DNA of 64,000 nt, from positions 1-64,000 of the forward strand of contig JAPPOQ010000009.1 of NCBI GenBank assembly GCA_028817895.1. Direction: 5' to 3'. This DNA comes from Ahrensia sp. (lineage in GTDB: Bacteria > Pseudomonadota > Alphaproteobacteria > Rhizobiales > Rhizobiaceae). Shown piece after piece: positions 47,072 to 63,784 of this stretch (the stretch's first letter is position 1; the number at the start of each line of letters is the position of its first letter). The notes below the pieces were generated by a model. That model saw nothing but the letters and a program-made list of their open reading frames with translations, ran no database searches and was not told the DNA's origin. The translations under genes and the position numbers were made by a program.

Positions 47072-47773
47072 CTACACGACCGTTCTCATTTGATAGCCCG
47101 GATGGAAAACCAGACTTACCGCCGTAATCGCAGTGTCATTGTTCCAAGTGGTGCGGTCGATTGCGAAAAGAGCCTCGCCACCTTTGATACCCAGTCGTTC
47201 GGCAATCGAGTCATTGGCTATTGTCGCAGAAAAAGCGATATCGCCGTTTGTGAACGGTGCATTGGCAACGAGCCATTCATTCGCGCTCACCCGTGAAAAA
47301 TCCACATGCGCTATGTCCGGCACGGCCTCAAGATTGATCCAGCGATCAGAGATTACGTAGGGCTTGCCATCCGCAATATGCACGGATTGATGATGCAGCA
47401 ATCGCTCGCTGCTATTGAGGCGCATATTGGCACGAATGTGCAGCGGAGGCTCTTCGATTTTTGAGGAGAACACGGCATAGGAATAGGTCTGGTTCCGGCT
47501 TTCAATTTCCTCTCTAATGACGGGAATGCTCAGAGTTGCTTTGCGAACGGGGTTCGTCGCCACCCGTGTGCCCGCCTTGCGTTTTCGGTCCAGCAATCCG
47601 CTTTCGGCAACCGAACGAAGGGCGCGATTTACGGTTGCACGCGCGCAACCAAATTCCAAGGCAAGATCGGATTCATTCGGTATCAGTTGCCCAGGTTCCC
47701 ACTGGCGCGAGTGAATGCGCGACAGCACTTCAGCCTCGACGGCTTTCCAGTTATTGATGTTGGCGGTCGTCAA
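47072..47773 (-). CDS. hutC: Histidine utilisation repressor HutC (GntR family)
   Basis: 233 residues. GntR winged helix: WKAVEAEVLSRIHSRQWEPGQLIPNESDLALEFGCARATVNRALRSVAESGLLDRKRKAGTRV, followed by a UTRA effector domain that binds urocanate in this family. Start taken as TTG 47771-47773, which overlaps the hutF stop (TTGA) and gives the expected N-terminus; the longer open frame upstream lies within hutF. Represses the hut genes until urocanate accumulates; the likely operator is at 49158-49187. Confidence 0.87.
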   Translation of the reverse strand: MTTANINNWKAVEAEVLSRIHSRQWEPGQLIPNESDLALEFGCARATVNRALRSVAESGLLDRKRKAGTRVATNPVRKATLSIPVIREEIESRNQTYSYAVFSSKIEEPPLHIRANMRLNSSERLLHHQSVHIADGKPYVISDRWINLEAVPDIAHVDFSRVSANEWLVANAPFTNGDIAFSATIANDSIAERLGIKGGEALFAIDRTTWNNDTAITAVSLVFHPGYQMRTVV

Positions 47774-49137
47774 ATCGCATCTCCCAGGTCGCGCATCGTC
47801 TCGCGATAGCCGTTGACGAGTTCGTCGCGATCCACGTGTTGGCCGTCGCATACCATATGTCGTCCGGCCGCCCATACATCACGCACCATGCGGTCGTCAC
47901 CGGCGAATACATAGCTATCCAACAACACATCCCCTGCCTTGCCGTCCAGGTCGACATGGTTGGCATCCAGTGCCATGAGGTCAGCCCAATTTCCCTCTGC
48001 GATGGTACCTGTCTGCCGACCAGCCGCTTGTGCGCCACCGAGGCAAATCTCGTCGAGCAACCGTCGTCCGGTGGATTTCTCGCTCGTTGCCAATGCGGCA
48101 CGGGAACGGTCACGCAGGCGCTGGGAATAATCCAGGGTGCGGAGTTCTTCAGACAGGCTGATGCGGATGTTGGAATCCGATCCGACAGCGATTTTCCCGC
48201 CGGCATCTAACCACCGCAAACCATCGAAAGTACCGTCCCCAAGGCTGGATTCTGTAATCGGGCAAAGGCCGACCACGGCGCCGGTGCGAGCCAGACCTTC
48301 GGTTTCGTGCGGCAGCATTTGAGTGCAATGGATCATGCACCAGCGGTCATCGATTGGCAGATTATCGAGCGTCCATTCCGTTGGGCGCTTTCCCCACGCC
48401 TCCTCGACTTCGTCGACTTCCGCAATTTGTTCGGCAAGATGCATGTGGATGGGGCCATTTGTGCCAAGTCCCATGAGGGCCTCAAGACCATCGGCGCCAA
48501 CGGCCCGCAGACTGTGTGGAGCAATGCCTATATTGGAATCCGGGGCCAGGTCTTTCACCGCGCTGCCCGCATCTTCGAGCAGCCGGGCAAAACGATCGAC
48601 ATCATTGCCGAAACGAATTTGTCCATCGCCAAGCGGGCGCTGATCACATCCGCCAAATTGATAGTGAACTGGCAATAATGTGAGCCCGATGCCTGAGCGC
48701 TTGGCCGCAGCGACGATACGTTCTGACATCTCCGCCAGATTGTCGTAAGGCATGCCCCCCGGTTGATGGTGCAGATAGTGGAACTCCACATTTGTGGCAA
48801 AGCCCGCCTCCAGCATTTCCATCTGGACGAAGGCCGCGATGGTTTCCACATGCTGTGGGGTCAGACGATCAAGAAAACGGAACATCAACTGGCGCCATGT
48901 CCAGAACGTATCGTTCGGGTTGGGTCCACGACGCTCCGTCAGGCCGGCCATGGCGCGCTGAAAGGCATGACTGTGCGCGTTTACCGGCGCCGGCAGCAAA
49001 ATCTCGACTTGATGATCAGGCGAAGCCGGCGCCGTTTCTGAAACACCGGCAATGCGACCTGTTTCATCGATCTCGACAGTCACATCTTGTGTCCATCCGC
49101 CGGGCAACAATGCCTGCTTTGCATGAAGTTTGGTCAT
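47770..49137 (-). CDS. hutF: Formimidoylglutamate deiminase
   Basis: 455 residues, amidohydrolase that converts N-formimino-L-glutamate to N-formyl-L-glutamate and ammonia, the first half of the five-step hut route. Metal-ligand motifs: LPAPVNAHSHAFQRAMAGL, IHMHLAEQ, WCMIHCTQM and VGSDSNIRISL. The presence of hutF together with hutG indicates the formylglutamate branch (not HutE/FTCD type). ATG 49137 preferred over the TTG one codon before. Co-transcribed with hutC. Confidence 0.93.
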   Translation of the reverse strand: MTKLHAKQALLPGGWTQDVTVEIDETGRIAGVSETAPASPDHQVEILLPAPVNAHSHAFQRAMAGLTERRGPNPNDTFWTWRQLMFRFLDRLTPQHVETIAAFVQMEMLEAGFATNVEFHYLHHQPGGMPYDNLAEMSERIVAAAKRSGIGLTLLPVHYQFGGCDQRPLGDGQIRFGNDVDRFARLLEDAGSAVKDLAPDSNIGIAPHSLRAVGADGLEALMGLGTNGPIHMHLAEQIAEVDEVEEAWGKRPTEWTLDNLPIDDRWCMIHCTQMLPHETEGLARTGAVVGLCPITESSLGDGTFDGLRWLDAGGKIAVGSDSNIRISLSEELRTLDYSQRLRDRSRAALATSEKSTGRRLLDEICLGGAQAAGRQTGTIAEGNWADLMALDANHVDLDGKAGDVLLDSYVFAGDDRMVRDVWAAGRHMVCDGQHVDRDELVNGYRETMRDLGDAI

Positions 49138-49157
49138 CAAAGTTCCAGCTTGACAGT

Positions 49158-49187
49158 CTTAATATGTACAGACATATACATATTAAG
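49158..49187. promoter_or_regulatory. HutC operator candidate and hutI promoter
   Basis: Perfect 11-bp arms CTTAATATGTA (49158-49168) and TACATATTAAG (49177-49187) flank an 8-base spacer in the 72-base gap between divergent hutF and hutI. A TTGACA at 49150-49155 followed by CATATA 17 bases later (49173-49178) forms a promoter toward hutI that the dyad overlaps. Position, symmetry and a TGTA/TACA core fit a GntR/HutC site. Confidence 0.75.
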
Positions 49188-49209
49188 CGCAACTTGATCA
49201 ACTGTGTCC

Positions 49210-50403
49210 ATGCTGTTCACCAACGCAAAAATCGCAACCGTATCGGGTGACCAACCTTATGGTTTGATCGAAAATGGCGCCATCGTCACACAAGACGAGG
49301 AAATTGCCTGGGTTGGTGAAGCCGGCAATTTGCCGGACGAACATCGAAGCCACAAAGCTTATGACTGTGGTGGACGGCTCATCACTCCGGGCCTGATCGA
49401 CTGCCACACGCACATCGTCCATGGCGGCAATCGTGCAACCGAATTTGAAATGCGCCTCAAGGGCGCAAGCTACGAAGAGGTGGCCCGGGCAGGGGGTGGC
49501 ATCGTTTCCACCGTAACGGCAACCCGTGAGGCATCGGTCGATGATCTGGTGGCATCCGCCTTGCCGCGGCTTGACGCTTTGATTGCCGAAGGCACCTGCA
49601 CTGTCGAAGTAAAGTCGGGCTACGGTCTGGATGATGAAACTGAACAAAACATGCTGCGGGCAGCACGGAGACTGGAAAGCGAACGGCCCGTTCGTATCGT
49701 CACCACTTTCCTCGGCGCTCATGCAGTTCCGAAAGAATTCGGCGACCGTGCTGATGCCTATATCGACGGCGTATGCATCCCGACCTTGGAAGCCGCTCAC
49801 GCCGAAGGGCTTGTCGATGCGGTCGATGGATTTTGCGAGAACATCGCCTTCACACCGGATCAGATTGAGCGGGTCTTCGTGCAGGCAAAGGAACTCGGTC
49901 TGCCGGTCAAACTCCACGCCGAACAATTATCGAATATGGGCGGCACGCAATTGGCCGCGCGCTACGGCGCACTGTCCGCCGACCACATCGAATATGCCAA
50001 TGTGGACGATGCGAAGGCACTGGCCGCTTCGAGCACCGTGGGTGTTGTCTTGCCCGGTGCTTTTTACACGCTGCACGAAAAGCAGGTGCCACCTATCCAG
50101 CACTTGCGCGACCACAACGTCCCCATCGCCTTGGCGACTGACTGCAACCCTGGTTCCTCTCCCTTGGCCTCGCTCATTTTAACGATGAACATGGCCTGCA
50201 CATTATTCCGTATGACACCGGAAGAGGCGCTGGTGGGCGTGACGGCGAACGCAGCCAAGGCTCTGGGGCTGCCAGACGTCGGCACCATCGAGGCTGGCAA
50301 GCGGGCAGACCTTTGCATCTGGAACATCGAACATCCGGCAGAGCTTGCCTACCGCATCGGCTTCAATCCGCTGCACAAGCGCGTGTTTGGGGGCCGGATA
50401 TGA
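49210..50403 (+). CDS. hutI: Imidazolonepropionase
   Basis: 397 residues, amidohydrolase that opens imidazolone-5-propionate to N-formimino-L-glutamate. Motifs: [28 protein letters not shown] (metal and substrate binding), [31 protein letters not shown] and [15 protein letters not shown] 49210 preferred; GTG 49204 is in frame. First gene of the large plus-strand operon; stop overlaps hutH (ATGA). Confidence 0.95.
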
Positions 50404-51941
50404 CCGTAGAACTCATCCCGGGCCAGGCAACGCTGGCCCAACTCGAGCATATCTGGCGGTCCGGTGAGGCGGTGAAACTGCACGAAGATGCGCGCCCACA
50501 CATAGAGCGCGCTGCGGAAATGGTCGCTCAAGCTGCGGCTGGTAGCGAGGCTGTTTACGGTGTGAATACCGGCTTCGGCAAATTGGCCAGCGTCAAGATC
50601 GCAGCCAGGGATACGGCCACACTGCAGCGCAACTTGATCTTGTCCCATTGTTGCGGCGTGGGTGAAACACTCGATGTCAACACAACACGCCTGATGATGG
50701 TACTGAAACTGCTGTCGCTTGGGCGCGGCGCGTCCGGTACGCGCTGGGTCGTGATCGAGCAGATCCAAAACATGCTGAAAACAGGCGTCACGCCCGTCAT
50801 CCCCGATCAAGGGTCTGTCGGTGCGTCCGGCGATCTCGCACCTTTGGCCCATATGGCCGCAGCGATGATGGGTGAAGGCGAGGCGTTTTACTCGGGCGAA
50901 CGCATGGCGGCCGGCGATGCACTGTCCAAAGCGGGCCTCGACCGGCTCGAACTGGGCCCCAAGGAGGGGCTTGGCCTTATCAACGGCACGCAATTTTCCA
51001 CCGCCTGCGCTTTGACGGGCCTGTTTGGCGCTTGGCGCAACGCGGCGGCAACAATCGTTTCCGCATCGCTCTCGACTGACGCCATCATGGGGTCGACCGC
51101 GCCTCTGGTCGATGACATTCACACCCTGCGCGGCCACGCAGGGCAAATCGCTGTTGCGCGAGCCATGCGCGATATCATGGCAGGTTCGGAAATCCGCGAA
51201 AGCCACCGCGAAGGCGATACGCGAGTGCAAGATCCCTATTGCATCCGCTGCCAGCCGCAGGTGACAGGCGCGGCGATGGACTTGCTGCATTTTGCAGGTC
51301 GCACACTGGAAGTCGAATCCAATGCCGTGACAGACAATCCGCTTGTCTTGACCGAAGAGGGGCTGATCGTTTCCGGCGGTAATTTTCATGCCGAACCCGT
51401 GGCTTTCGCAGCCGACCAGATCGCTTTGGCGATTTCCGAAGTCGGAGCCATTTCGCAACGCCGCGTTGCGCTGATGGTGGACCCGACCCTGTCTTTCGAT
51501 CTGCCGCCCTTTCTCACGCCAGAGCCCGGCCTGAACTCCGGCCTGATGATTGCCGAGGTGACGACGGCAGCGCTGATGAGCGAGAACAAGCATCTGGCAA
51601 ACCCTTGTTCGACGGATTCCACCCCGACTTCCGCCAATCAGGAAGACCATGTTTCGATGGCGGCTCACGGTGCGCGGCGCCTGGTCCGCATGAACCGCAA
51701 TCTCAATGCGATCATCGGCGTTGAATTGATGTGCGCAGCGCAGGGCGTGGAGTTTCGCGCTCCCTTGAAGACGAGCGAGAAACTGGCGGCGGCCATGGCG
51801 GTTCTTCGCAAGCAAGTCGCCACGCTGAAAGACGATCGCTACATGGCCGACGATCTCGCCAGAGCATCTGCAATCGTCGCGGAGGGTGATCTGCTCTCGG
51901 CTTTAAGCGTTTCCGGCTTTGTCACAGGCGAGGCCGTATGA
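50400..51941 (+). CDS. hutH: Histidine ammonia-lyase (histidase)
   Basis: 513 residues. Eliminates ammonia from L-histidine to give trans-urocanate. The MIO cofactor triad Ala-Ser-Gly is in [14 protein letters not shown]; other family segments are [19 protein letters not shown] and [13 protein letters not shown]. Length is normal. Overlaps hutI and hutG by ATGA. Confidence 0.95.
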
Positions 51942-52738
51942 ACCCCGTTGAAATCCAGCGTGGCGACAGCCCCATTGTCCTTGGCCTGCCTCATACGGGC
52001 ACGTTTATGCCTGAAGACTTGTTCGAACGGCTGAATGAGAACGGTCGCACGCTTCGCGACACGGACTGGCATATCCACACCCTCTATGACGGGCTTCTGG
52101 AAGGCGCGACCACCGTGCGCGCTGCGTTCCATCGCTACGTGATCGACGCAAATCGCGACCCTGAAGGTGTGAGCCTTTATCCAGGTCAAAACACGACAGG
52201 ACTGGTGCCGCTGACCGATTTCGACGGCTTGCCGATCTGGTCGCAGCCGCCCACGGATACCGAGATCGAAGCGCGGCGCGCACATTTCCATACGCCGTAC
52301 CACGCGGCGCTGGAACGGGAATTGCAGCGGGTTCGGGCCAGGCATGGCATCGCCATTCTTTACGACTGCCACTCGATCCGCTCGCACATACCCTACCTGT
52401 TTGACGGCACATTGCCGGATTTCAACATCGGCACGAACGAGGGCCAGACCTGCGCTCCTGAAGTGCAGGACGCGGTTTGGCAAATATGCCGGCAGGCGCA
52501 GGATTACACCTCCGTGCTCAATGGCCGGTTCAAAGGCGGCTGGACGACGCGTCAATACGGGCGACCGGCTAAGAACATCCACGCCATTCAGATGGAACTG
52601 GCTCAATCCACCCATCTGACATTCGAAACTCTGCCATTCGACTATGATGTGGAGAAAGCCAAAACGCTGCGGGTTCACCTCAAACACATTCTCACCGAGC
52701 TATCCGAAGTTGCCGGACAATTTGGGGCAAGCGCATGA
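51938..52738 (+). CDS. hutG: N-formylglutamate deformylase
   Basis: 266 residues, metal-dependent amidohydrolase that releases formate and L-glutamate from N-formylglutamate, the last hut step. Motifs: [58 protein letters not shown] and [15 protein letters not shown]. Overlaps hutH (ATGA) and the CoA-transferase gene (ATGA). Confidence 0.94.
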
Positions 52739-53934
52739 AGCCGCTTGAAGGCGTCCGCATTCTCGATATGACCCGTGTACTGGCGGGGCCGTATTGCACG
52801 GCTCTGTTGGCCGATCTTGGCGCGGAGATCATCAAGCTGGAGCCGCTGCACGGTGACGACTACCGCCATATCGGTCCCTTCGTTGATGGCGAAAGTGCTT
52901 TGTTTTCGCTCAGTAATCGCGGCAAAAAATCCATCGCTCTGAACCTGAAAGCGGAACGCGGGCTTCAGATTGCCCTTGAGATTGCCGATCAGGTTGATGT
53001 GGTCGTTGAAAACTTCCGGCCCGGTGTAGCGGCGCGCATTGGCCTCGGGCCGGATACCCTTCGCGAGCGCAATCCGAGGCTCGTTTATTGTTCGATTTCC
53101 GGTTTCGGCCAGACCGGGCCGATGAAGGACCAGCCTGCTTACGATCTCGTCGTGCAGGCCATGAGCGGCCTCATGGCGGCAACGGGCGAAGAGGGTGGTC
53201 AACCTCTCAAAACGGGTGAGAGCATTGCCGACCTGACAGGCGGGCTGTTCGGCTCGTGGGGCATTTTGGCAGCGCTGGTCCACAAAGGACGCACGGGTGA
53301 GGGCGCAACGCTGGATGTCTCAATGTACGATGCGCTCTATTCCATGCTGACGACCAGCCATGCATTGCATCTTTACGCCGATAAAACGCCTCAGCGCGTT
53401 GGTAACCGGCATCCGCTTTCCACGCCATTTGGTTGTTATGAAACAAGCGACGGTCAAGTTGTGATCGCCGTTTTGAATGCTTCGCAATTTGCTCGCTTTG
53501 CCGATCTGATCGGACATGGCGGCATTGAGAGCGACCCGCGCTTTGCCAGTGATACGGCCAGAACGGAAAACGAAGCAGCGTTGCGGGCGATGATTGAGAA
53601 CTGGTCGTTGAACCGCTCGACAGAAGCGGCGATCGTCGACCTTGCCGGTATCGGCATTCCCTGCGCCCCCATCTGGGACATCATGCAAGCGACCAACAGC
53701 GATCACGCCCGCGAGCGGGGTCTGGTGCGAAACGTTACGCACTCGAAATTGGGCGAATCGCCAGTCGTCGGCCAGCCGGTATTCTTCAACGGCCAAAAAC
53801 CAGGCGCCGATCACGGCGCGCCATCTCTGGGCGCCGAGGCGGAGGAGATTTTATCCACCTTCAACGGCCTGACTTCATCAGAGATTCGTGAGCTTTGTGA
53901 AAACGGAATCCTGTCATCGGGAGCCGACCGATGA
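52735..53934 (+). CDS. Family III CoA-transferase (CaiB/BaiF type)
   Basis: 399 residues. CoA-transferase family III enzymes move CoA between carboxylic acids through an aspartyl-CoA intermediate. Seen here: VRILDMTRVLAGPYCTALLADLGAEIIKLEP, VVVENFRPGVAARIGLG, the catalytic Asp in QPAYDLVVQAMSGLMAATGE, and STPFGCYETSDG. Not part of the normal hut pathway, yet coupled at both ends by ATGA to hutG and an acyl-CoA dehydrogenase. An attractive reaction is exchange of CoA between urocanyl-CoA and an imidazole-containing acid such as imidazole propionate; this is inference. Confidence 0.9.
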   Translation: MKPLEGVRILDMTRVLAGPYCTALLADLGAEIIKLEPLHGDDYRHIGPFVDGESALFSLSNRGKKSIALNLKAERGLQIALEIADQVDVVVENFRPGVAARIGLGPDTLRERNPRLVYCSISGFGQTGPMKDQPAYDLVVQAMSGLMAATGEEGGQPLKTGESIADLTGGLFGSWGILAALVHKGRTGEGATLDVSMYDALYSMLTTSHALHLYADKTPQRVGNRHPLSTPFGCYETSDGQVVIAVLNASQFARFADLIGHGGIESDPRFASDTARTENEAALRAMIENWSLNRSTEAAIVDLAGIGIPCAPIWDIMQATNSDHARERGLVRNVTHSKLGESPVVGQPVFFNGQKPGADHGAPSLGAEAEEILSTFNGLTSSEIRELCENGILSSGADR

Positions 53935-55079
53935 ATGATCTCTACCACATGCTCAGTTCCGAAGAGCGCATGTTTTGTGATGTGTTGGAACGCATTGCCG
54001 ATGAACACATAGCTCCGAGGGCTCAGAACACCGACGAGGCCGGTGAATTTGTTCACGAGCAACTGAAAGTTCTGGCTGAAGCCGGGATGATGGGTGCAAA
54101 TCTGCCGGAAGAGGCAGGTGGCAGCGGCATTTCCGCATCCGCCCTTTTGCGCGCAGTGGAAATCGTGGCTGGCGCATGCGGTTCGACCGCTTCAGCCCTG
54201 ACGGCCCACTACCTCGCGACCGATTCAGTATTGATTGGCGGCACTGATGCGCAAAAACAGGATTTTCTGCCCAAGGCCGCATCGGGCGAATGGCTTGGAG
54301 CATTCGGTCTGACGGAACCGTCAGCGGGAAGCGATCCGGCAGACATGAATACCCGCGCCGTGCGCGAGGGCGATGGATGGCGGCTGAAGGGCACAAAATG
54401 CTTCATCTCCAATGGAGGTGTCGCCGATTTCGTGATCGTTTATGCCAAGACCGATCCGTCCGCCCGGCATCGCGGCATTAGCGCCTTCATCCTGCCGAAG
54501 GGCACCGATGGGCTCGATATCGGCAACCCTGAAAAAACGATGGGGTTGAAGGGCGGTCATGTCTTTACCCTCAACCTCGATTGTCATCTTCCCGGTGATG
54601 CAATTCTGGGCAGCAGTGAGGGGCAGGGTTTCAAAACCGCCATGAAAGTGCTGGACAATGGCCGCGTTGAAGTTGCCGCCCAGTGCATCGGCTTGGCCCA
54701 GGCTGCGCTTGACGCCGCCGTGAAATATTCCGGCGAAAGGGTCATCGGCGGAAAGGCGTTGAACCACAAACAGGGCATCCGCTGGATGCTTGCCGATATG
54801 TCGATGGAATTGCGCTGTGCCCGTCTCATGGCCCTGGAAGCGGCCAGACAGCGTGATCTCGGTATCCGGTTCTCGGAAGCTGCTTCGATGGCGAAGCTGA
54901 AGGCCTCCGAAGCTGCCGATATGGTTGCCGACACCGCACTGCAAATCCACGGTGGCTATGGCTACACCCGCGACTTCCCGATCGAACGGATCACACGCGA
55001 TTTGCGCATCATGAGGATCTATGAAGGTTCCTCGGAAATCCAACGCACCATCATCGCAGGCCATCTGCTGGCTCAATAA
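53931..55079 (+). CDS. Acyl-CoA dehydrogenase
   Basis: 382 residues, FAD-dependent alpha,beta-desaturating enzyme. Family segments: [79 protein letters not shown] with the usual catalytic glutamate in YEGSSEIQ. Lies between the CoA-transferase and hutU, so a CoA ester desaturated here could directly give the acrylate side chain of urocanate. The electron acceptor would be ETF, not encoded nearby. Confidence 0.9.
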
Positions 55080-55090
55080 CGGAGTTTTTC

Positions 55091-56767
55091 ATGACCAATC
55101 CCCGCCACAACATGCGCGATGTTTTTCCCGACACCGGCAAGGAGATTTCCGCAAAGAGCTGGCTGACTGAAGCGCCGATGCGGATGCTGATGAACAATCT
55201 GCATCCCGATGTTGCGGAAAATCCGCATGAGCTTGTTGTGTATGGCGGTATCGGCCGTGCGGCGCGCACATGGGACGATTTCGACAAGATGGTCGCCACA
55301 ATGAAAACGTTGGAGGACGACGAGACCATGCTGGTGCAGTCGGGCAAACCGGTCGGTGTGTTCCGCACCCACAAGGATGCGCCGCGTGTGCTGATCGCCA
55401 ACTCCAACCTCGTGCCGCATTGGGCGACGTGGGATCATTTCAATGAGCTCGATAAGAAAGGTCTGGCCATGTACGGCCAGATGACTGCCGGCTCGTGGAT
55501 CTATATCGGCACGCAGGGCATCGTTCAGGGAACTTACGAAACCTTCGTCGAGGCCGGCCGTCAACACTATGACGGTAATCTGTCCGGCAAGTGGATTCTG
55601 ACCGGCGGTCTCGGCGGCATGGGTGGTGCTCAGCCACTGGCAGCCGTCATGGCCGGTGCCTGTTGTCTCGCCGTGGAATGCGACGAGACCCGCGCCGATT
55701 TCCGCCTGCGTACCCGCTATGTGGACGAGAAAACCCATTCGCTCGACGAGGCGCTGGCGATGATCGATCGCTGGACGAAGGCAGGTGAGGCGAAGTCCGT
55801 TGCATTGATCGGCAACGCGGCGGATGTGTTTCCGAAGCTCGTCGAAATTATGGGTAATGGTGGGGTCCGTCCCGACATCGTCACGGACCAGACCAGCGCG
55901 CACGATCCGCTGCATGGTTATCTGCCGCAAGGTTGGGACGTTGCCGAGTGGCGAGCCAAACAGGAAAGCGAGCCTAAGGCCGTTGAAAAAGCCGCCCGCG
56001 AATCCATGAAAATTCACGTGCGGGCGATGGTGGATTTTTGGGATGCGGGAGTCCCGACCCTCGACTACGGCAATAACATCCGTCAGGTCGCAAAAGAAGA
56101 AGGACTTGAAAACGCTTTCGCCTTCCCGGGTTTCGTGCCGGCTTATATCCGTCCGCTCTTCTGCCGGGGTATCGGGCCTTTCCGCTGGTGCGCACTGTCG
56201 GGAGACCCCGAAGACATCTACAAAACCGACGCCAAGGTGAAAGAACTCGTCGATGACGCACATCTGCACAATTGGCTCGACATGGCCCGCGAACGGATAT
56301 CGTTTCAGGGCCTTCCCGCGCGCATCTGCTGGGTCGGACTGGGTGTCCGTCACAAGCTCGGCCTTGCTTTCAACGAGATGGTACGAAGCGGAGAACTTTC
56401 CGCACCGGTCGTGATCGGTCGCGATCATTTGGACTCAGGCTCTGTCGCCTCACCCAACCGCGAAACGGAAGCCATGAAGGACGGCTCCGACGCCGTCTCC
56501 GACTGGCCGCTCTTAAATGCACTGCTCAACACAGCGTCCGGTGCGACCTGGGTGTCGCTTCATCATGGTGGTGGTGTCGGCATGGGCTTCTCGCAGCATT
56601 CAGGGATGGTGATCTGCTGTGACGGCACTGAAGATGCCGACCGCCGCATCGCCAATGTGCTCTGGAACGACCCGGCAACCGGTGTCATGCGCCATGCCGA
56701 TGCAGGCTACGAAGACGCGCTCGATTGCGCGCGCGAAAACGGCCTGAACCTTCCAGCTATTCTTTGA
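55091..56767 (+). CDS. hutU: Urocanate hydratase
   Basis: 558 residues, NAD+-dependent hydratase turning urocanate into imidazolone propionate. Motifs: [39 protein letters not shown] (NAD binding), [36 protein letters not shown] and [22 protein letters not shown] precedes the start by eight bases. It follows the acyl-CoA dehydrogenase by 11 bases; in most hut operons it is next to hutH. Confidence 0.95.
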
Positions 56768-56782
56768 GACGAGGATTCAATC

Positions 56783-57586
56783 ATGAACACAGCAAATATC
56801 ACAGACACCCAGATCGAAGAGTTTCAGCGCGATGGCGCTGTGCTGTTGAAGGGCGCATTCGCCGATTACGTCGAGCCGCTGCGCAAGGCAATCGAGGAAA
56901 ACAAGGCCAACCCTTCATGGCGTGAGCGCACTTACACGCCCGAAGATGGCAGTGCTCCGTTCTTTCAGGATTACTGTGTCTGGTCGCAATTCGGCGGCTA
57001 TAAGTCACTTGTGACGGAATCGCCGATGGCAGCGATGGCGGCGCGCCTTATGCAATCCAGGACCGCCCGTATTTTCCACGATCATATTCTGGTGAAGGAG
57101 CCAGGCAATTCAATCGTCACGCCGTGGCATCAGGATCAGCCTTATTATCTGGTTGAAGGTCAGCAGTCGGTCTCGTTCTGGGTGCCGCTCGATTCTGTCC
57201 CACGGGATCGGACGATCGAATATGTCGCCGGTTCGCACCATTGGAACAAGGATTTCAAACCCACGCGTTTCGATGGAACGGCACTGTTTGAAAACGATGT
57301 GTCCGAGGAAGTACCGGATGTGGATGCCAAGCGCGATGAGTTGGATATTCTCGGCTGGGCCGTTGAACCTGGGGATGCCGTCGCCTTTACGTTCCGCACA
57401 TTGCACGGTGCGCCGGCCAATGCATCGCCGACCCGCCGCCGTGTGATCTCGGTTCGCTGGGTTGGGGACGATGCGCGTTTTGCGGACCGTCCGGGCAAGA
57501 CCTCGCCGGCATTCCCCGATCTTGATTTTGCACCTGGCCAGCCCTTCGAGGCCGATGAGTTTCCAGTGCTTCACACCACCGCGTAA
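56783..57586 (+). CDS. Phytanoyl-CoA dioxygenase (PhyH) family oxygenase
   Basis: 267 residues, Fe(II)/2-oxoglutarate-dependent dioxygenase fold. Iron ligands H-x-D in TPWHQDQPYYLVEG and the distal His in FRTLHGAPANAS; FWVPLDSVPRDRTIEYVAGSHHW is the usual PhyH core. Members hydroxylate small molecules such as ectoine, betaines or lipids, or start N-demethylation. Here 15 bases after hutU, ahead of a Rieske oxygenase, so likely acts on a modified imidazole compound entering the hut route; inference. Confidence 0.87.
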   Translation: MNTANITDTQIEEFQRDGAVLLKGAFADYVEPLRKAIEENKANPSWRERTYTPEDGSAPFFQDYCVWSQFGGYKSLVTESPMAAMAARLMQSRTARIFHDHILVKEPGNSIVTPWHQDQPYYLVEGQQSVSFWVPLDSVPRDRTIEYVAGSHHWNKDFKPTRFDGTALFENDVSEEVPDVDAKRDELDILGWAVEPGDAVAFTFRTLHGAPANASPTRRRVISVRWVGDDARFADRPGKTSPAFPDLDFAPGQPFEADEFPVLHTTA

Positions 57587-57613
57587 ATTCAGCTTCGCAA
57601 GAGGAAGAACCCG

Positions 57614-58654
57614 ATGTTTTTGAAGAACGCCTGGTATGTCGCCGCCTGGGATCATGAAGTCACAACCGAGCTGCAGCAGGTTGTCGTTCTGGGTGAGAAG
57701 ATCTGCATGTATCGGACCAGCAGGAACGAAGTGATCGCGCTGGAAGATGCCTGCCCGCATCGCAAGCTGCCTTTGTCGAAAGGCCGCATCAAGGATGATA
57801 ACCTGGAATGCGGTTATCACGGGCTGACATTCGATTGCGCGGGTCAATGCGTATGGGCACCGGGTGGTGGACGCATTCCTTCAAACGCCAAAGTGCGCAC
57901 CTATCCGGTTCACGAGAAATACGGTCTGGTTTGGATATGGATGGGTAACGCTGCGATAGCCGAGCCGGAAGAAATCTTCGATATTCCCAATTTCGACAAT
58001 CCTGCCTGGGGCATGAACCGCGGTGCCGCGATGGAGCTGGACTGCAACTATCTCTACATGTGCGACAATCTTCTTGACCCGACCCATGTCGCATGGGTGC
58101 ATGAGAGCTCGTTCGGTCAGGCATCGACGAAAGACACGCCGCTGCGCGTCTCCAAGACAGACGATGGCATCATCGTCCATCGTTGGATGATGGATGTGGA
58201 GCCTGCGCCTTTCTACAAGAAGGTCATCGGCTTTGAGGGCAATTGCGACCGCCTCCAGCACTACGAAGTCCGCTATCCGAGCCACGCGCTCATCAAGGCG
58301 GTGTTCACTCCTGCCGGCACCGGCGGGCCGGACGGCAAGCTCCACGATGATGTGTTCATCATGGACAGCTACAACTTCATGACGCCGACGACCGACAAGA
58401 AGACCCGATATTACTGGTTCCAGCTGCGCAACATCCGCCCTGATGACGAAGAGCTTTCAAAGGTGATGAGCGATGACGTGCAACACGCCTTCGAAGAAGA
58501 CCGGGCCGTTCTCAATGAGGTGCAGAAGGGAATGGACAGCAAGACGTCTCCCCATATCGACTTGCCTATCGACGGCGGACAACTGCGTTTCCGCCGCAGA
58601 CTACAGGCAATGATTCAGGAAGAGGCTGCGGTCGACGAGCATATGGCCAATTGA
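57614..58654 (+). CDS. VanA-like Rieske non-haem iron oxygenase
   Basis: 346 residues. Rieske [2Fe-2S] domain with CPH at about 47-49 and CGYHG at about 66 ([27 protein letters not shown]), then the catalytic domain with the mononuclear iron motif [14 protein letters not shown] (D-x2-H-x4-H). The closest named relatives are vanillate O-demethylase-type oxygenases that remove methyl groups from O or N, so demethylation or ring hydroxylation of a methylated imidazole is plausible. No dedicated VanB-type reductase adjoins; the flavin reductase at 59812 may serve. Confidence 0.88.
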
Positions 58655-58683
58655 CGGCCGCTTTAGAGAATAGGGATGCGGCA

Positions 58684-59727
58684 ATGAACAACTGGGTCGT
58701 CGACGCGATCGGCAAGATCAACGCGGATGCCCACAGATCGGCTGACACCCATCTGTTCAAACTCCCCCTGCCGCGTCTTGAAGGGATCGACATCTATCTC
58801 AAAGACGAGAGCACCCATCCCACAGGCAGTCTCAAACATCGACTGGCGCGTTCCTTGTTTTTGTATGCATTGTGCAACGGCGAGATAAAGGAAGATATGA
58901 CGGTAGTGGAGGCATCCTCCGGAAGCACTGCTGTTTCGGAAGCCTATTTCGCAAGGATGATAGGCGTGCCCTTCATAGCAGTACTCCCCAAAAGCACTGC
59001 TCGCAGCAAAATCAGCCAGATCGAATTCTATGGCGGCCAAACTCACTTTGTGGAGTCAGCACCGCAAATGCATGGTGCGTCGGTCGAGCTGGCGGCTTCG
59101 ATCGGCGGGTATTTTATGGACCAGTTCACCTTTGCGGAACGCGCAACAGATTGGCGGGGCAACAACAACATTGCCGAAAGCATTTTTACCCAAATGGAGC
59201 GTGAACCGCACCCGGTGCCCTCGGTCTTGGTGATGAGTGCAGGAACCGGAGGAACATCCGCGACGCTGGGCCGCTATATCCGGTACAGGGGCTACGACAC
59301 AAGACTCACTGTCGTGGACCCGGAAAACTCGGTCTTTTATGACAGCTACATGACCGGCGATCGTAGTCTTGTCTCTGATAAATCCAGCCGCATCGAGGGT
59401 ATTGGGCGGCCCAAAGTCGAACACTCCTTTCAGCCGGGGGTCATCGACAAGATGCTGCAGGTGCCTGATGCTGCAAGCATAGCGACAATGCTATGGCTGG
59501 AAAAACTGATCGGGCGAAAGGCCGGACCATCGACAGGCACGAACCTCTGGGGTGCTCTGAAATCGGCGCAAGAGATGGCAAAACTCGGTCAGTCCGGATC
59601 CATCGTCACGCTTTTGTGCGATGGTGGAGAGCGCTATCTCGACACCTGTTACGATCCGACATGGGTAAGCACATGTGTCGGAGACTACGAACAATACGCT
59701 GTTGAACTGGATGGTGATTTCAGCTGA
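58684..59727 (+). CDS. PLP-dependent cysteine synthase/desulfhydrase-like enzyme
   Basis: 347 residues, fold type II PLP enzyme. PLP lysine in [18 protein letters not shown], asparagine-loop region [30 protein letters not shown], glycine-rich phosphate site [19 protein letters not shown]. The pattern fits the Cds1-like cysteine desulfhydrase branch of the cysteine synthase family more than housekeeping CysK. In this operon it could release sulfur or ammonia from a substituted amino acid. ATG 58684 chosen; an in-frame TTG at 58651 overlaps the Rieske stop. Confidence 0.8.
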
Positions 59728-59811
59728 TCGGATTTCGCTCAAATTCAACCGCGCTGATTGGTGCATGCAATTTTAGACAACGCAATTAGATGCCGCATGT
59801 GGGAGAGAGAA

Positions 59812-60465
59812 ATGGAATACGCACCGGGACACGAAAAGTGTCCGCTGCCATTTTCGCCGTTCAAGAGCTGCACAGTGCCGCGGCCTATCGGCTGGTTGTC
59901 GACAATCAGCGCTGACGGCATCCACAATCTGGCACCCTACAGCCAATGGCAGAATCTGACCTTCGACCCGCCAATGGTGATGTTTGCCGCCAACCAGCTT
60001 TCCGACGGCCGGCGGAAAGATACCGTGCTCAACGCGGAAGAAACCGGCTGGTTTGTCTGGAACATGGCCACCTGGGGTCTTCGAGATGCGGTAAATGTTT
60101 CGGCAATGGAACTTGGTCCTGGGGAGGACGAGTTTGACCGGGCAGGCGTGACCAAGGCGGCCTGTGTCGATGCTCCTGGCGCGCGCGTTGCCGAAAGCCC
60201 TTGCCATTTCGAATGCAGCTATGTTTCGACCCATCGCTTGCCCGGCCACAGCCCGGTTGGTTCAATTGATGTGGTCTACGGTCGTGTTGAGCGCCTCCAT
60301 GTGGCTGACGATGTTTTGACCGCCGAAGGTAAACTCGACATTCCCAAAATCCAGCCCATCGCTCGAATGGGATATTACGATTACGCCTGCATCCGCGAGA
60401 CGTTCGAGATGCGAATTCCAAACGCGAGCGGTGCCGCCGCAGATGGGCTTGAAGGCAAGGCGTAG
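59812..60465 (+). CDS. Flavin reductase-domain protein
   Basis: 217 residues of the flavin reductase (FlaRed/DIM6-NTAB) family: CTVPRPIGWLSTISADGIHNLAPYSQWQNLTFDPPMVMFAANQ, KDTVLNAEETGWFVWNMAT and ESPCHFECSYV. Such proteins bind FMN and reduce it with NAD(P)H, feeding oxygenases; some have hydrolase-like or other roles. GGGAGAG just upstream supports ATG 59812 over earlier in-frame starts (59758, 59797). Probable electron partner for the Rieske oxygenase, by context only. Confidence 0.83.
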   Translation: MEYAPGHEKCPLPFSPFKSCTVPRPIGWLSTISADGIHNLAPYSQWQNLTFDPPMVMFAANQLSDGRRKDTVLNAEETGWFVWNMATWGLRDAVNVSAMELGPGEDEFDRAGVTKAACVDAPGARVAESPCHFECSYVSTHRLPGHSPVGSIDVVYGRVERLHVADDVLTAEGKLDIPKIQPIARMGYYDYACIRETFEMRIPNASGAAADGLEGKA

Positions 60466-60490
60466 AAAACTTCAACAAGGAGAAGAGACC

Positions 60491-61585
60491 ATGAAAAGAA
60501 GACAGTTTTTGTCAGCCGGAGCCGCAACCGCAGTTGCCGCAACAACTGTAGGCCTTGCCACCCCGGCAATCGCACAGGAAAAACGTCAATGGAAAATGGT
60601 AACGGCGTGGCCGAAAAACCTGCCGGGACCGGGCGTTGCTGCCCAAATGCTGGCCGACCGCATCACCGCTCTCTCCGGTGGCCGCATCGAGGTTAAATTG
60701 TTCGCGGCCGGCGAACTTGTGCCGGGACGGGGTGTTTTTGATGCCGTTTCGGAGGGGACCGCTGAACTCTACCATGCCGTGCCGGCATATTGGGGCTCCA
60801 AGTCAAAAGGCATCTTGATGTTTGGCTCGCAGCCCTTTGGATTGCGTGCGGATGAGCAGGTCGGCTGGATGACCCATGGCGGCGGACAGGCGCTCTATGA
60901 CGAGATGTATGGCCGGTTTGGCTTGAAACCGTTTCTTTGTGGCAATTCCGGCCCACAATGGCAGGGTTGGTTCAAGAATGAACTCAACTCGGCGGAAGAT
61001 CTCAAAGGCCTGAAATTCCGTACAACAGGTCTTGCTTCCGAGATGTGCTCAAAGCTGGGTATGGCGGTTCAGGCCATGGGCGGTCGTGACATGTTTCAAG
61101 CGCTCCAGTCGGGTGCTCTTGATGCGGGTGAGTTTATCGGGCCGTGGACCGACAGTGCGCTTGGCTTCCATCAGGTCGCCAAGAACTACTACTGGCCGGG
61201 TGTTGGCGAACCGTCTTCCGCCGAAGAATGCTCGGTCAACGCCAAGGCCTATAACGAGTTGCCTGATGATTTAAAGGCTGCGGTCAGTCTGGCCTGCGAG
61301 AGCCTCTATAATCCGGTCTGGACCGAATACACGACCAAGCATGCGCTTGCTCTGAAAAAGCTGGTCGATGAGGAAGGCGTGCAGGTTAAGCAGCTGCCAG
61401 ACGATATCCTGGCCGCCATGGGCAAGGCGGGCGATGAGGTGATTTCAGAACTCCGTGAAGACGAAGATGAGCTGGTAAAGCGCATTGCCGAGAGTTTTGT
61501 TTCCTATCGGGACTCCGTTGGCCGTTACATGGTCTATGCCGATAACGGCCAGATGAACGCCCGTGCAAAGGCCTTGAGCTACTAG
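60491..61585 (+). CDS. dctP: TRAP transporter solute-binding protein (DctP family)
   Basis: 364 residues. Tat-type signal MKRRQFLSAGAATAVAATTVG ending near AIAQ, then the DctP domain: WKMVTAWPKNLPGPGVAAQMLADRI, GGRIEVKLFAAGELVPGRGVFDAVS, GNSGPQWQGWFKNELNSAEDLKGLKFRTTGLAS. TRAP binding proteins capture organic acids in the periplasm; the WPKNLPG branch includes 2-oxoacid and similar binders with a conserved Arg (here in LKFRTTG). The ligand is probably the imidazole-type carboxylate degraded by the operon. AAGGAG precedes ATG 60491. Confidence 0.9.
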   Translation: MKRRQFLSAGAATAVAATTVGLATPAIAQEKRQWKMVTAWPKNLPGPGVAAQMLADRITALSGGRIEVKLFAAGELVPGRGVFDAVSEGTAELYHAVPAYWGSKSKGILMFGSQPFGLRADEQVGWMTHGGGQALYDEMYGRFGLKPFLCGNSGPQWQGWFKNELNSAEDLKGLKFRTTGLASEMCSKLGMAVQAMGGRDMFQALQSGALDAGEFIGPWTDSALGFHQVAKNYYWPGVGEPSSAEECSVNAKAYNELPDDLKAAVSLACESLYNPVWTEYTTKHALALKKLVDEEGVQVKQLPDDILAAMGKAGDEVISELREDEDELVKRIAESFVSYRDSVGRYMVYADNGQMNARAKALSY

Positions 61586-61593
61586 GCAAAGGT

Positions 61594-61626
61594 GAAAGGC
61601 TGGCGCTCGTTTCGCGCCAGCCCTTT
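61594..61626 (+). terminator. Stem-loop between dctP and dctQ
   Basis: GGCTGGCGC (61598-61606) and GCGCCAGCC (61614-61622) pair around a seven-base loop; flanking GAAA/TTTC extends the stem with one bulge. Located just after dctP inside the operon. Such structures often stabilise or partly terminate the message so that the binding protein is made in excess over the membrane subunits. Confidence 0.65.
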
Positions 61627-61674
61627 CCTGGTTGGATCCTGAGTTCAACCAATTCTCCAATGCGGGGTGGGATC

Positions 61675-62178
61675 GTGCAAAGAGTTATCGATAGGCTGGA
61701 TTCCATCAATCACGGCGTTGGCATGGTTGTGCGTTGGGCAGCCATTGTGATGGTGCTCATTCAATTTGCCATCGTGCTGTTTCGGTATGTCTTTGGGTTT
61801 AGCAGCATCGCGGTGAATGAGAGTGTTTTGTATCTGCACGCAACGCTCTTCATGCTGGGTGCGGGTTATACATTGCTGGTCGACGGACACGTCCGGGTCG
61901 ATATCTTTTACGCAAAATCGGACCCAGGACGAAAAGCGGCCATCGATATGTTCGGCCATCTCGTTTTGCTCATCCCGTCTATGCTGGTGCTGGCCTATTG
62001 GTCGTGGCCGTCCGTGGTGAACTCGTGGAGGATTCTGGAAGGCCCGATTTCCGTTGGCGGCATTCCCGCGTCTTTTCTGCTCAAAACCCTTATTCCGGCA
62101 TTTTGCGTTTTGCTCGTGGTCCAGTCGGTATCGTGTCTGTTGGCAAGTGCGCTGCGCAGAAAGGGGAATGTGCGTTGA
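61675..62178 (+). CDS. dctQ: TRAP transporter small permease (DctQ family)
   Basis: 167 residues, four helices: WAAIVMVLIQFAIVLFRYVFG, NESVLYLHATLFMLGAGYTLL, DGHVRVDIFYAKSD and IPASFLLKTLIPAFCVLLVVQSVSCLLAS. Pairs with DctM to form the sodium-driven symporter. GTG 61675 chosen because GGGGTGGGA lies just before it; ATG 61660 is in frame but has no ribosome-binding site. Stop overlaps dctM (TTGA). Confidence 0.87.
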   Translation: MQRVIDRLDSINHGVGMVVRWAAIVMVLIQFAIVLFRYVFGFSSIAVNESVLYLHATLFMLGAGYTLLVDGHVRVDIFYAKSDPGRKAAIDMFGHLVLLIPSMLVLAYWSWPSVVNSWRILEGPISVGGIPASFLLKTLIPAFCVLLVVQSVSCLLASALRRKGNVR

Positions 62179-63725
62179 GCCTTCCCCTCGACCTATTGAT
62201 GTTCGCCGCCCTGATTTGCTGCATCCTCCTGGGCTTTCCTGTTTCCTTCAGCATTTCGGGGATTGCGATCATCTTTGCCTTTCTGGGCTGGATGACGGGT
62301 GCAATGGACATCACCCTTTTGGGTGCCCTGGGACAGCGCGTTTTCGGTGTCATCACCAACAGCGTTTTGATCGCCATTCCCCTGTTTGTGTTCATGGGGG
62401 TCGTTCTGGAGAAAAGCCGGATTGCCGAGGATTTGCTGGAGACGATGGGCCAGCTTTTTGGTCGCCTGCGCGGTGGCCTCGGCTTGTCCGTGGTTGTGGT
62501 CGGCGCGCTCTTGGCGGCCTCGACGGGCATCGTCGGGGCGACGGTCATTGCCATGGGTCTGATCGCGCTGCCGACAATGTTGCGCAATGGCTACAACCCG
62601 CGACTGGCCTCAGGCATCGTCTGCACGTCAGGCACACTGGGGCAGATCATTCCTCCTTCGACACTCCTGATCATTCTCTCCGACGTCATGTCCAATTCGT
62701 TCCAGCAAGCGCAGTACGCTCAGGGAAAATTCAACATCGAAACCATTTCTGTGGGTCAGATTTTTGCCGGAGCCCTGCTGCCCGGTTTGATGCTGGTCTC
62801 GATTTACATGGTCTACATTTTGTTGCGCGCCTGGTTCATGCCCTCCGATGCACCCGCAGCCAAAGAAATGATGGAAAGGCCATCGCGCCAGGCAGTCTTC
62901 ACAGCCATCGTACCGCCTATTCTTTTGATCGTGGCAGTCCTTGGAGCAATTCTGGGCGGCGTCGCTACTCCCACGGAGGCTGCCTCGGTTGGTGCTGTCG
63001 GCGCGCTCTTGATGGCAGGACACCGTTCGGGTGGCCCCGTGAAACTCATCCTGCTGGGCGCTGCTGCGCTCTTTTATCTCGGCATCGCCGCGGGCATCGC
63101 CCCGGTTCGGTTTCAACGAAATGACCTGAATCTTGGCGACTTTGCATTGGGTGGCTCTTACGGAGTACTCGCGGCTATCGGTGTTGCTGCCATCGCGGTT
63201 GCCTTACTGCGCGCCTGGCGGACCGGCATCTTGTTACCGGCGATGACTCAAACGATGACCGTCACATCGATGATATTTGCCACCATCGTGACGGCCAGTA
63301 TTTTCTCTCTCGTCTTTATCGGCTTGGGTGGCGAAGAACGTGTTGGAGAATTTTTGAAGCTCATGCCGGGAGGCCCACAGGGCGCTTTGCTCTTCTGTAT
63401 GGCATTGATATTTGTGCTCGGTTTCTTTCTCGATTTTGTCGAGATCACAGTTATCCTTTTGCCGCTTGTCACGCCGCCGCTTATATTGATGGGGCATGAT
63501 CCCTACTGGCTTGCGATTCTGATCGCCATCAATTTGCAAACTTCGTTTCTGACACCACCCTTCGGTTTCTCCCTGTTCTACCTTCGAGGCGCTGCACCAA
63601 AGGAAATCACGACCGGTATGATCTATGCCGGTGTTGCACCCTTCATCGGCTTGCAGCTGCTGGGCATGTTTATCATCTGGGTCTATCCGGCAATTGCGAA
63701 CTGGTTGCCGGCGGTATTGTACTGA
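62175..63725 (+). CDS. dctM: TRAP transporter large permease (DctM family)
   Basis: 516 residues, about 13-14 helices, the ion-coupled translocation subunit. Hallmarks: FAALICCILLGFPVSFSISG, ASTGIVGATVIAMGLIALPTML, SGTLGQIIPPSTLLIILSD and GGVATPTEAASVGAVGALLMAG. Longer than the common ~430-residue form; the extra length is an inserted pair of helices around residues 300-360 (LILLGAAALFYLGIAAG ... YGVLAAIGVAAIAVALL), as in the long DctM subgroup. TTG start 62175 overlaps the dctQ stop and has AGGGGA upstream. Last gene of the hut operon. Confidence 0.88.
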   Translation: MSLPLDLLMFAALICCILLGFPVSFSISGIAIIFAFLGWMTGAMDITLLGALGQRVFGVITNSVLIAIPLFVFMGVVLEKSRIAEDLLETMGQLFGRLRGGLGLSVVVVGALLAASTGIVGATVIAMGLIALPTMLRNGYNPRLASGIVCTSGTLGQIIPPSTLLIILSDVMSNSFQQAQYAQGKFNIETISVGQIFAGALLPGLMLVSIYMVYILLRAWFMPSDAPAAKEMMERPSRQAVFTAIVPPILLIVAVLGAILGGVATPTEAASVGAVGALLMAGHRSGGPVKLILLGAAALFYLGIAAGIAPVRFQRNDLNLGDFALGGSYGVLAAIGVAAIAVALLRAWRTGILLPAMTQTMTVTSMIFATIVTASIFSLVFIGLGGEERVGEFLKLMPGGPQGALLFCMALIFVLGFFLDFVEITVILLPLVTPPLILMGHDPYWLAILIAINLQTSFLTPPFGFSLFYLRGAAPKEITTGMIYAGVAPFIGLQLLGMFIIWVYPAIANWLPAVLY

Positions 63726-63734
63726 TCGAAATCT

Positions 63735-63762
63735 GGATAGCCGGATATCATTCCGGCTATCC
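63735..63762. terminator. Bidirectional terminator between dctM and NCS1 gene
   Basis: Perfect 10-bp stem GGATAGCCGG (63735-63744) / CCGGCTATCC (63753-63762) with loop ATATCATT, placed between convergent genes ending at 63725 and 63785. No long T-run, but position and stem strength favour termination in both directions. Confidence 0.7.
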
Positions 63763-63784
63763 ATGTCATCTGGTTGCTCAGCGT

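Follow-up and report, generated by a model that had tools for sequence, protein, structure and literature searches.

CaiB, a coenzyme A (CoA) transferase, hands CoA from the product ester to the next substrate, and caffeyl-CoA reductase (CarC), like the aryl-propionyl-CoA dehydrogenases, is an acyl-CoA dehydrogenase (ACAD) that acts on aryl-propionyl or aryl-acryloyl CoA esters. Urocanate reductase (UrdA) is a flavin enzyme of the fumarate-reductase type that is not known to use CoA. Degradation of imidazolylpropionate by Pseudomonas testosteroni was reportedly described by Coote and Hassall in 1973. UrdA is described as forming imidazole propionate from urocanate anaerobically (PMC10882135), and imidazole propionate, which gut microbes are described as producing, has been linked to type 2 diabetes, atherosclerosis and other diseases. 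In Pseudomonas, HutC, the repressor of histidine utilization (hut), is reported to recognize the consensus TGTA-N2-TACA and to be freed from DNA by urocanate (PMC12977541). Here, we analyzed a 64,000-nucleotide stretch of DNA from Ahrensia sp. (contig JAPPOQ010000009.1, positions 1 to 64,000; hereafter the window), in which a family III CoA-transferase gene and an ACAD gene (together, the pair) are embedded in a hut operon. We computed the genes, the linkage of the pair to hut, a predicted operator, a change in a binding protein and candidate catalytic residues, and we consider it likely that the pair forms an upper pathway by which imidazole propionate (dihydrourocanate) enters histidine catabolism, passing through urocanyl-CoA to HutU.

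The pair lies within a complete hut operon

The window lies within contig C38 of a 3.5-Mb genome assembled in 46 contigs. Open reading frames (ORFs) and profile searches gave the plus-strand order hutI-hutH-hutG-CoA-transferase-ACAD-hutU-PhyH-Rieske-PLP enzyme-flavin reductase-dctPQM (PLP, pyridoxal phosphate), with hutF and hutC on the minus strand, divergent and directly upstream of hutI (47072-49140). Every gene named in an initial annotation of this DNA was found in the order and on the strand given there, with identities now taken from profile searches. The features around the pair are as follows.

47072..47875, minus strand: hutC, GntR/UTRA repressor of hut (TIGR02018, 259.1 bits, cut-off 220)
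47770..49140, minus strand: hutF, formimidoylglutamate deiminase (NF006684, 638 bits, cut-off 525; TIGR02022, 532 bits, cut-off 413)
49163..49176, no strand assigned: predicted HutC operator in the hutF-hutI gap (15.9 bits, top score of the 64 kb)
49204..50403, plus strand: hutI, imidazolonepropionase (TIGR01224, 479 bits, cut-off 298; ATG probably at 49210)
50400..51941, plus strand: hutH, histidine ammonia-lyase (TIGR01225, 669 bits, cut-off 539)
51938..52738, plus strand: hutG, N-formylglutamate deformylase (TIGR02017, 374 bits, cut-off 279)
52735..53934, plus strand: family III (CaiB/BaiF) CoA-transferase (PF02515, 412 bits; candidate catalytic Asp166; aligned to YfdE, 4hl6)
53931..55079, plus strand: ACAD (PF00441/PF02770/PF02771; candidate catalytic Glu365; best solved relative 5ol2)
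55091..56767, plus strand: hutU, urocanate hydratase (TIGR01228, 940 bits, cut-off 375; 985 bits to 1uwl)

The hut pathway is full, with HutH, HutU, HutI, the HutF-HutG branch and HutC all exceeding curated NCBIfam equivalog cut-offs, and hutH was the sole PF00221 match found in the genome. Taking the ATG at 50400 as the hutH start and the methionine of MKRRQF as that of dctP, 4-base overlaps occur at six of the twelve junctions (hutI/hutH, hutH/hutG, hutG/CoA-transferase, CoA-transferase/ACAD, Rieske/PLP enzyme and dctQ/dctM), while gaps of 11 to 74 bases separate the genes at the other six, so that the earlier description of an operon without gaps holds for half of the junctions. The operon is real and conserved, and it is probably functional.

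Both members of the pair gave strong superfamily matches and scored below the cut-off for every named NCBIfam subfamily listed, including the CaiB/CaiA equivalogs (148.9 bits against a cut-off of 413 for NF002914 and 166.5 against 540 for NF002885). The ACAD carries all three Acyl-CoA_dh domains (N, M and C), and its Glu365, which we take to be the catalytic residue, lies in the motif YEGSSEIQR and is invariant among 21 of 21 aligned ACADs. In the CoA-transferase, Asp166 (GESIADLTGG), presumably the nucleophile, aligns with the Asp of two solved relatives. The candidate catalytic residues expected of both enzymes are thus present.

The pair is a recurrent module of hut operons

To place the pair in a wider context, we used seven aligned ACADs as the query in a scan of GTDB genomes. 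The scan covered only stretches matching one of two short peptide patterns, and the orthologs it returned are not a census; six rows of the seven-row alignment and six of the loci come from the same organisms, and the scan and our survey of the family are not independent. Gene counts per locus used BLAST-first ORFs, because codon-score gene calling often mis-set starts, with gap limits set by tblastn; in the genome searches the first few candidates per genome were scored, and copies may be missed. The scan gave 36 loci, of which L065-L068 (29-37% identity) were removed before counting, leaving 32 orthologs at 67-80% identity (one partial). These came from Paracoccus, Roseovarius, Mesorhizobium, Aquamicrobium, Pseudaminobacter, Mycoplana, Shinella and similar genera, which we take to be Alphaproteobacteria.

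A CoA-transferase gene adjoined the ACAD gene in all 32 loci, and in 23, each on a separate contig, the pair lay between hutH/hutG and hutU, as the initial annotation had proposed to check. A further contig ends inside the ACAD gene with hutI and hutH upstream, bringing the loci with hut genes around the pair to 24. The remaining eight (L036, L039, L047, L048, L050, L052, L058 and L060) have no intact hut enzyme genes at the site; all eight of these stand-alone cassettes carry the same SBP_bac_3 ATP-binding cassette (ABC) transporter, seven have a HutC-like gene adjoining the pair, and hutU is present somewhere in each of the eight genomes. In a second survey, on another draw of 398 Pseudomonadota genomes, nine (this one included) had the ACAD at E ≤ 1e-95. 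All nine have hutU, compared with 147 of the 398 overall, and in seven, again including this genome and spanning five families, the ACAD lies within 8 kb of hutU (about 11, 22 and 33 bases; 1.2, 3.0, 5.2 and 7.9 kb). Because the pair stands between hutH/hutG and hutU on 23 of 32 contigs and within 8 kb of hutU in seven of nine genomes, its linkage to hut exceeds chance, and the pair is a recurrent hut module. The arrangement also reaches beyond the class: L134, from outside the Alphaproteobacteria, has a hutC-like gene, hutU, the CoA-transferase, the ACAD and a permease (PF02133).

In Paracoccus alkanivorans (L039, 8378-11521), full-length CoA-transferase, ACAD and ABC genes stand amid a decayed hut operon, of which hutI residues 4-108, hutG residues 197-264 and hutU pieces 1-97 and 507-558 are left, while an intact hut operon lacking the pair lies elsewhere in the genome (L148). 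This suggests that the pair has a value separate from the local hut operon. The ACAD also occurs in 14 plasmid records, nine of which we inspected. The pair lies inside hut on four of the nine (L186, L199, L203 and L204, with L203 stopping before the expected hutU); plasmid pAMI6 of Paracoccus aminophilus JCM 7686, for instance, has the order hutIHG-pair-hutU-ABC. On two more (L182 and L206) it stands with a Rieske oxygenase, a reductase, an aminotransferase and a flavin adenine dinucleotide (FAD) oxidase, with a HutC-like gene in both, the same ABC transporter in L206 and no hut enzymes in the stretch read of either. In the window, the ACAD is nearest to Roseovarius (80%; the Hyphomicrobiales-type copies listed are at 72-75%) and hutU is nearest to its own genus (94%), which suggests acquisition of the pair by transfer, judged on nearest matches rather than on a tree.

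Pair cassettes and hut promoters share a predicted HutC-type operator

We next considered the promoters. Those of the stand-alone cassettes share a repeated palindrome-like site, the pattern of which resembles the Pseudomonas HutC consensus. We built a matrix of 13 positions from eight sequences taken from these promoters only. In 23 of 23 hut loci, its highest score anywhere in the locus fell between hutF and hutI; no site of at least 14.9 bits appeared in four control loci (82,168 bases). The window conforms to this pattern, its best match being the predicted site at 49163-49176. Further sites were found in L104 and L206, where they lie in the gap between CoA-transferase and transporter; in L133, immediately upstream of dctP; in L098, upstream of both the binding-protein gene and hutI; and in L183, near the transporter genes of a Rieske cluster. 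Pair cassettes and hut promoters thus appear to share a predicted operator of the HutC type.

Linked transporters are predicted to take up acids lacking an alpha-amino group

An SBP_bac_3 ABC transporter accompanies the pair in 27 of the 32 ortholog loci. In amino-acid binders of this kind, an Arg holds the alpha-carboxylate and an Asp holds the alpha-ammonium. The Arg of the TIT..R motif is conserved in the binding proteins of all 27 cassettes and in three of three related ones (L098, L103 and L104), and all 30 have Ser at the position where AncQR has Asp; the Asp is kept in seven of seven LAO-type control binding proteins from Rieske clusters. An AlphaFold model of a cassette binding protein (mean predicted local distance difference test score, pLDDT, 92.5) has amino-acid binders as its nearest solved chains, and its fold matches include 6mla, the D161A mutant of LAO. 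Since the Arg is kept and the Asp is replaced, the probable ligand of the linked transporter is a carboxylate that lacks an alpha-amino group, such as imidazole propionate, urocanate or a similar acid; the change does not separate imidazole propionate from urocanate or similar acids.

The window carries in place of the ABC genes a complete tripartite ATP-independent periplasmic (TRAP) transporter, with DctP, DctQ and DctM domains all matched.

60491..61585, plus strand: dctP, TRAP solute-binding protein (PF03480; start at MKRRQF)
61660..62178, plus strand: dctQ, TRAP small permease (PF04290)
62175..63725, plus strand: dctM, TRAP large permease (PF06808)

Relatives of this DctP are linked to hut in L033, L133, L197 and L199. 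In Roseovarius salinarum (L033), relatives of the window TRAP genes replace the ABC transporter (DctP 77%, DctM 73%); L133 has hutIHGU, HutC-like and LysR genes, then CoA-transferase-ACAD-DctPQM (DctP 80%, DctQ 64%, DctM 70%); and L199 reads hutCFIH-pair-hutU-DctPQM.

Proposed pathway and competing readings

Urocanate is the sole alpha,beta-unsaturated acid among the hut intermediates. Given that the pair sits near the urocanate route, its simplest role would be to make urocanate from its saturated form, imidazole propionate. We infer as follows which acid the pair uses, the direction in which it works, where the electrons go and how CoA is recycled. Imidazole propionate would be imported by the linked transporter, which is the SBP_bac_3 ABC system in 27 of the 32 loci and would be the TRAP system in the window, and the family III CoA-transferase would load CoA onto it. 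The ACAD would then oxidize imidazole propionyl-CoA to urocanyl-CoA, passing electrons to electron transfer flavoprotein (ETF), and urocanyl-CoA would give up its CoA, through the CoA-transferase, to another molecule of imidazole propionate. The urocanate so freed would serve both as the substrate of HutU and, through HutC, as an inducer.

Several observations weigh against this scheme. On three of the nine inspected plasmids (L184, L185 and L205; ACAD 58-62%), the pair follows a LysR gene and has no hut gene within about 10 kb on either side. Near the pair of L016 (ACAD 60%) there is only a HutD-like gene, and L131 (8418-12311; CoA-transferase/ACAD 54/62%) has an aldehyde dehydrogenase downstream of the pair; its 20 kb contain no hut gene, and hutU lies at a distance of 1.2 Mb. 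The two genomes of the second survey that exceed 8 kb are G314, at this 1.2 Mb, and G624, in which ACAD and hutU lie on different contigs. The pair is also rare, occurring in 8 of 297 genomes of the family, this one included, at E ≤ 1e-140, and it is absent from all seven same-genus hut loci inspected. The operator matrix found no site of at least 13.9 bits in four of these same-genus loci (L026-L029; L030 and L031 have one site each, and the sequence of L032 excludes the gap), in the pair-bearing loci L108, L129, L130, L132, L134, L184, L185 and L205, or in the TRAP loci L195-L198, so the matrix is not universal. The Ser change occurs as well in the binding proteins of L098 and L103, two loci whose 20 kb showed no pair, so Ser may mark urocanate or other imidazole acids. 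Finally, among the plasmid records with DctP at 68% identity or more (seven, of which five were read), one from Marinovum algicola (L197) has hut and TRAP genes without the pair, three show a GntR-TRAP arrangement and, over the stretch read, no hut gene, and the fifth (L199) has both hut and the pair. Because TRAP genes are also found in hut operons that lack the pair, urocanate may be their ligand, and we rejected the TRAP system as proof of imidazole propionate import; TRAP uptake, which the initial annotation took to suit an organic acid, is hut-linked with or without the pair and so does not point to imidazole propionate alone. As a separate observation, in L016/L140 (42% in L016) and, as judged by eye, in L108, a HutD-like gene adjoins more distant pairs, whether or not other hut genes are present.

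The pairs that lack hut neighbors bear on the view that the pair handles an unrelated acid, a dicarboxylate or short acyl-CoA, and sits in hut for regulatory reasons only. Profile matches to oxalate, succinate-glutarate and acryloyl-CoA enzymes would fit this, as would the plasmid and genome pairs without hut nearby, but every named subfamily score listed is below its cut-off, and the repeated hut linkage, the predicted HutC operator and the des-amino-type binding protein all argue the other way. After the linkage survey we did not favor this view, which we regard as highly improbable, although its counter-cases remain. The initial annotation had held that pairs occurring with unrelated catabolic genes would speak against a role in hut; the imidazole propionate proposal mostly withstands this check, in that most pairs are linked to hut or HutC, and L184, L185, L205, L016 and L131 lack hut enzymes in the stretch read.

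A second alternative concerns direction. Enzymes of the same two superfamilies, CaiB/CaiA, reduce crotonobetaine in E. coli, and the pair could likewise activate urocanate and dispose of electrons by reducing it to imidazole propionate; the lack of an amino group would hold for imported urocanate as well. Yet the pair is joined to urocanate-consuming operons, the stand-alone cassettes carry an ABC importer, the genera are generally regarded as largely aerobic, and the proteins identified in the window operon, to which that search was confined, include no ETF. We judge reduction in this direction very unlikely.

Third, the pair might act on a related imidazole acid, for example N-methylated imidazole propionate, within methyl-histidine breakdown. 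Plasmids of Gemmobacter fulvus and Mesorhizobium AR02 do cluster Rieske, reductase, HisC-like aminotransferase, FAD oxidase and pair genes; against this, a Rieske relative (at least 50%) occurs in just 1 of the 32 ortholog loci, so the simplest shared substrate would be unmethylated, and a methylated one seems to us quite unlikely. Oxidation of imidazole propionate, first put forward by the initial annotation, is therefore the reading we retain: hut linkage, the predicted HutC-type operator and the des-amino-type transporter favor it, while the pairs without hut enzymes do not.

Rieske and PhyH oxygenases form separate modules

Downstream of hutU, the operon continues with two oxygenase genes.

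56783..57586, plus strand: PhyH-type Fe/2-oxoglutarate dioxygenase (PF05721; nearest solved structure MysH)
57614..58654, plus strand: Rieske oxygenase of the VanA_C/dicamba-demethylase type (PF00355 and PF19112; nearest solved DdmC)

A same-genus genome (G223, L026) has hutIHGU-PhyH-Rieske (91% and 94%) without the pair, and 31 of the 32 pair loci have no Rieske relative; the pair and the oxygenases are therefore separate modules. Rieske matches at E ≤ 1e-100 occurred in 26 of 297 genomes of the family, including this one, and we inspected 23 neighborhoods (this one, L011, L026 and 20 others). A VanB-like reductase adjoins the Rieske gene in 17 of the 23. None adjoins it in the window, and a search of the same genome for such a partner gave a best match only 30% identical. 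Other neighbors include a HisC-like aminotransferase (L097 and L098), a glutathione-dependent formaldehyde dehydrogenase (L096) and a GlcD-like FAD oxidase that falls below the GlcD cut-off (L097 and L110). Some relatives are accompanied by amino-acid or peptide transporters, and hut genes lie nearby in L011/L042, L098, L108 and the plasmids L179 and L183.

These neighbors are relevant to whether the enzyme is an ordinary vanillate O-demethylase that stands near hut by chance, as published for plasmid pLM20P5. The window protein has a VanA_C domain, and the pLM20P5 copy and its reductase are annotated as VanAB by the authors of PMC4447125. However, the relatives sit with the HisC-like aminotransferase, the FAD oxidase and the amino-acid or peptide transporters, several of them beside hut, and the nearest solved relative is a dicamba demethylase; we therefore find vanillate an unlikely substrate. 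The gene context instead appears to point to histidine derivatives, and it fits N-demethylation of a methylated histidine derivative with release of formaldehyde. The N-methyl-histidine role raised earlier is a candidate function to which the reductase, the HisC-like aminotransferase, the FAD oxidase, the one formaldehyde dehydrogenase and several hut neighbors lend context.

PhyH matches at E ≤ 1e-50 were found in 48 of 270 genomes of the class, again counting this one, and seven regions were inspected. Hut genes surround PhyH in L188 and L189 (same genus) and in L190 (another family), with PhyH identities of 53-59% in genomes of two other families, and in L187 PhyH occurs with HutC-like, HisC-like, FAD oxidase and Rieske genes. 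None of these neighbors was seen in regions L191-L193. Rieske and PhyH relatives are thus each separately linked to hut, and both may serve in dealkylation of modified histidines.

Two side observations concern these genes. The genome has a second PhyH paralog (44% identity, G000:C41:33751-34527). On plasmids L179 and L183, one of them typed conjugative, Rieske, reductase, aminotransferase and FAD oxidase genes stand beside hut together with a five-gene ABC transporter and an aspartoacylase-family gene; as a guess, anserine and other methylhistidine dipeptides could be imported by way of these clusters.

Other genes of the operon and the thiourocanate question

Two further genes separate the oxygenases from the TRAP genes, placing a relative of Cds1-like desulfhydrases and a flavin reductase-like gene (58651-60465) inside a hut operon.

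58651..59727, plus strand: PLP enzyme, L-cysteine desulfhydrase Cds1-like (NF052478, 543 bits, cut-off 600)
59758..60465, plus strand: flavin reductase-like protein (PF01613, 49.8 bits, cut-off 27)

Cds1-like relatives occur in 20 of 151 genomes of the family, this one included, and in 43 plasmid records. The flavin reductase was found in this genome alone among the 151 and in 16 plasmid records, three of which were inspected and showed no hut genes around it.

Substrates of the hercynine or ergothioneine type had also been suggested. The window HutU scores 656.8 and 667.3 bits against thiourocanate hydratase cut-offs of 930 and 880, and 940 bits against the hutU equivalog cut-off of 375. We therefore rejected a thiourocanate or ergothioneine reading of hutU, and the suggestion is left unsupported; by these scores the window HutU is a true urocanase. 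Second HutU homologs at 46-49% identity, perhaps thiourocanate hydratases, occur in four genomes with stand-alone cassettes (L126, L127, L128 and G692:C7:123655-125232). Elsewhere in the window, an ORF upstream of hutC (45588-46505) resembles, by eye, an IS3-type transposase, and Rfam gave no match in 46000-64000.

Implications for histidine catabolism

Taken more broadly, hut in Alphaproteobacteria could be the lower route of a broader system, under HutC control, that handles modified histidines and in which exchangeable upper modules bring their own importers for acids or amino acids. We offer this tentatively, as somewhat short of an even chance. The modules would be the pair for imidazole propionate, the PhyH dioxygenase for another N-alkyl histidine, and the Rieske demethylase, accompanied by a reductase, a HisC-like aminotransferase and a FAD oxidase, for compounds of the N-methylhistidine or imidazole lactate types.

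A literature search conducted mostly outside subscription journals returned no paper naming genes for imidazole propionate breakdown, none using the term urocanyl-CoA and none combining histidine utilization, CoA-transferase, acyl-CoA dehydrogenase and urocanate, which is weak evidence. If our proposal is true, the pair would provide the first genes known to remove imidazole propionate oxidatively, and a two-gene cassette with a transporter and a regulator could explain the degradation reported in 1973. The cassette could supply enzymes to sense or remove imidazole propionate, and annotations such as "CoA transferase" or "acyl-CoA dehydrogenase family protein" would gain a specific function.

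Comparison with known systems

The pair would represent enzymes of known superfamilies in a new role. It belongs to the same superfamilies as CaiB/CaiA and would follow the same logic, with the unsaturated product ester donating its CoA to the saturated substrate that follows; it differs in scoring far below the cut-offs for those enzymes, in being linked to hut and HutC, and in a proposed direction of oxidation. UrdA acts on the same metabolite pair in the opposite direction, and the operon proteins show no UrdA-type Pfam domain. CarC is matched by the window ACAD at 247 bits (6fah), but is a reductase that works in an ETF complex. For the Rieske enzyme, DdmC is the nearest solved relative at 146.5 bits and NdmA/NdmB align weakly at 54-55 bits; all three are Rieske oxygenases that remove methyl groups, as proposed for the window enzyme, and their substrates differ.

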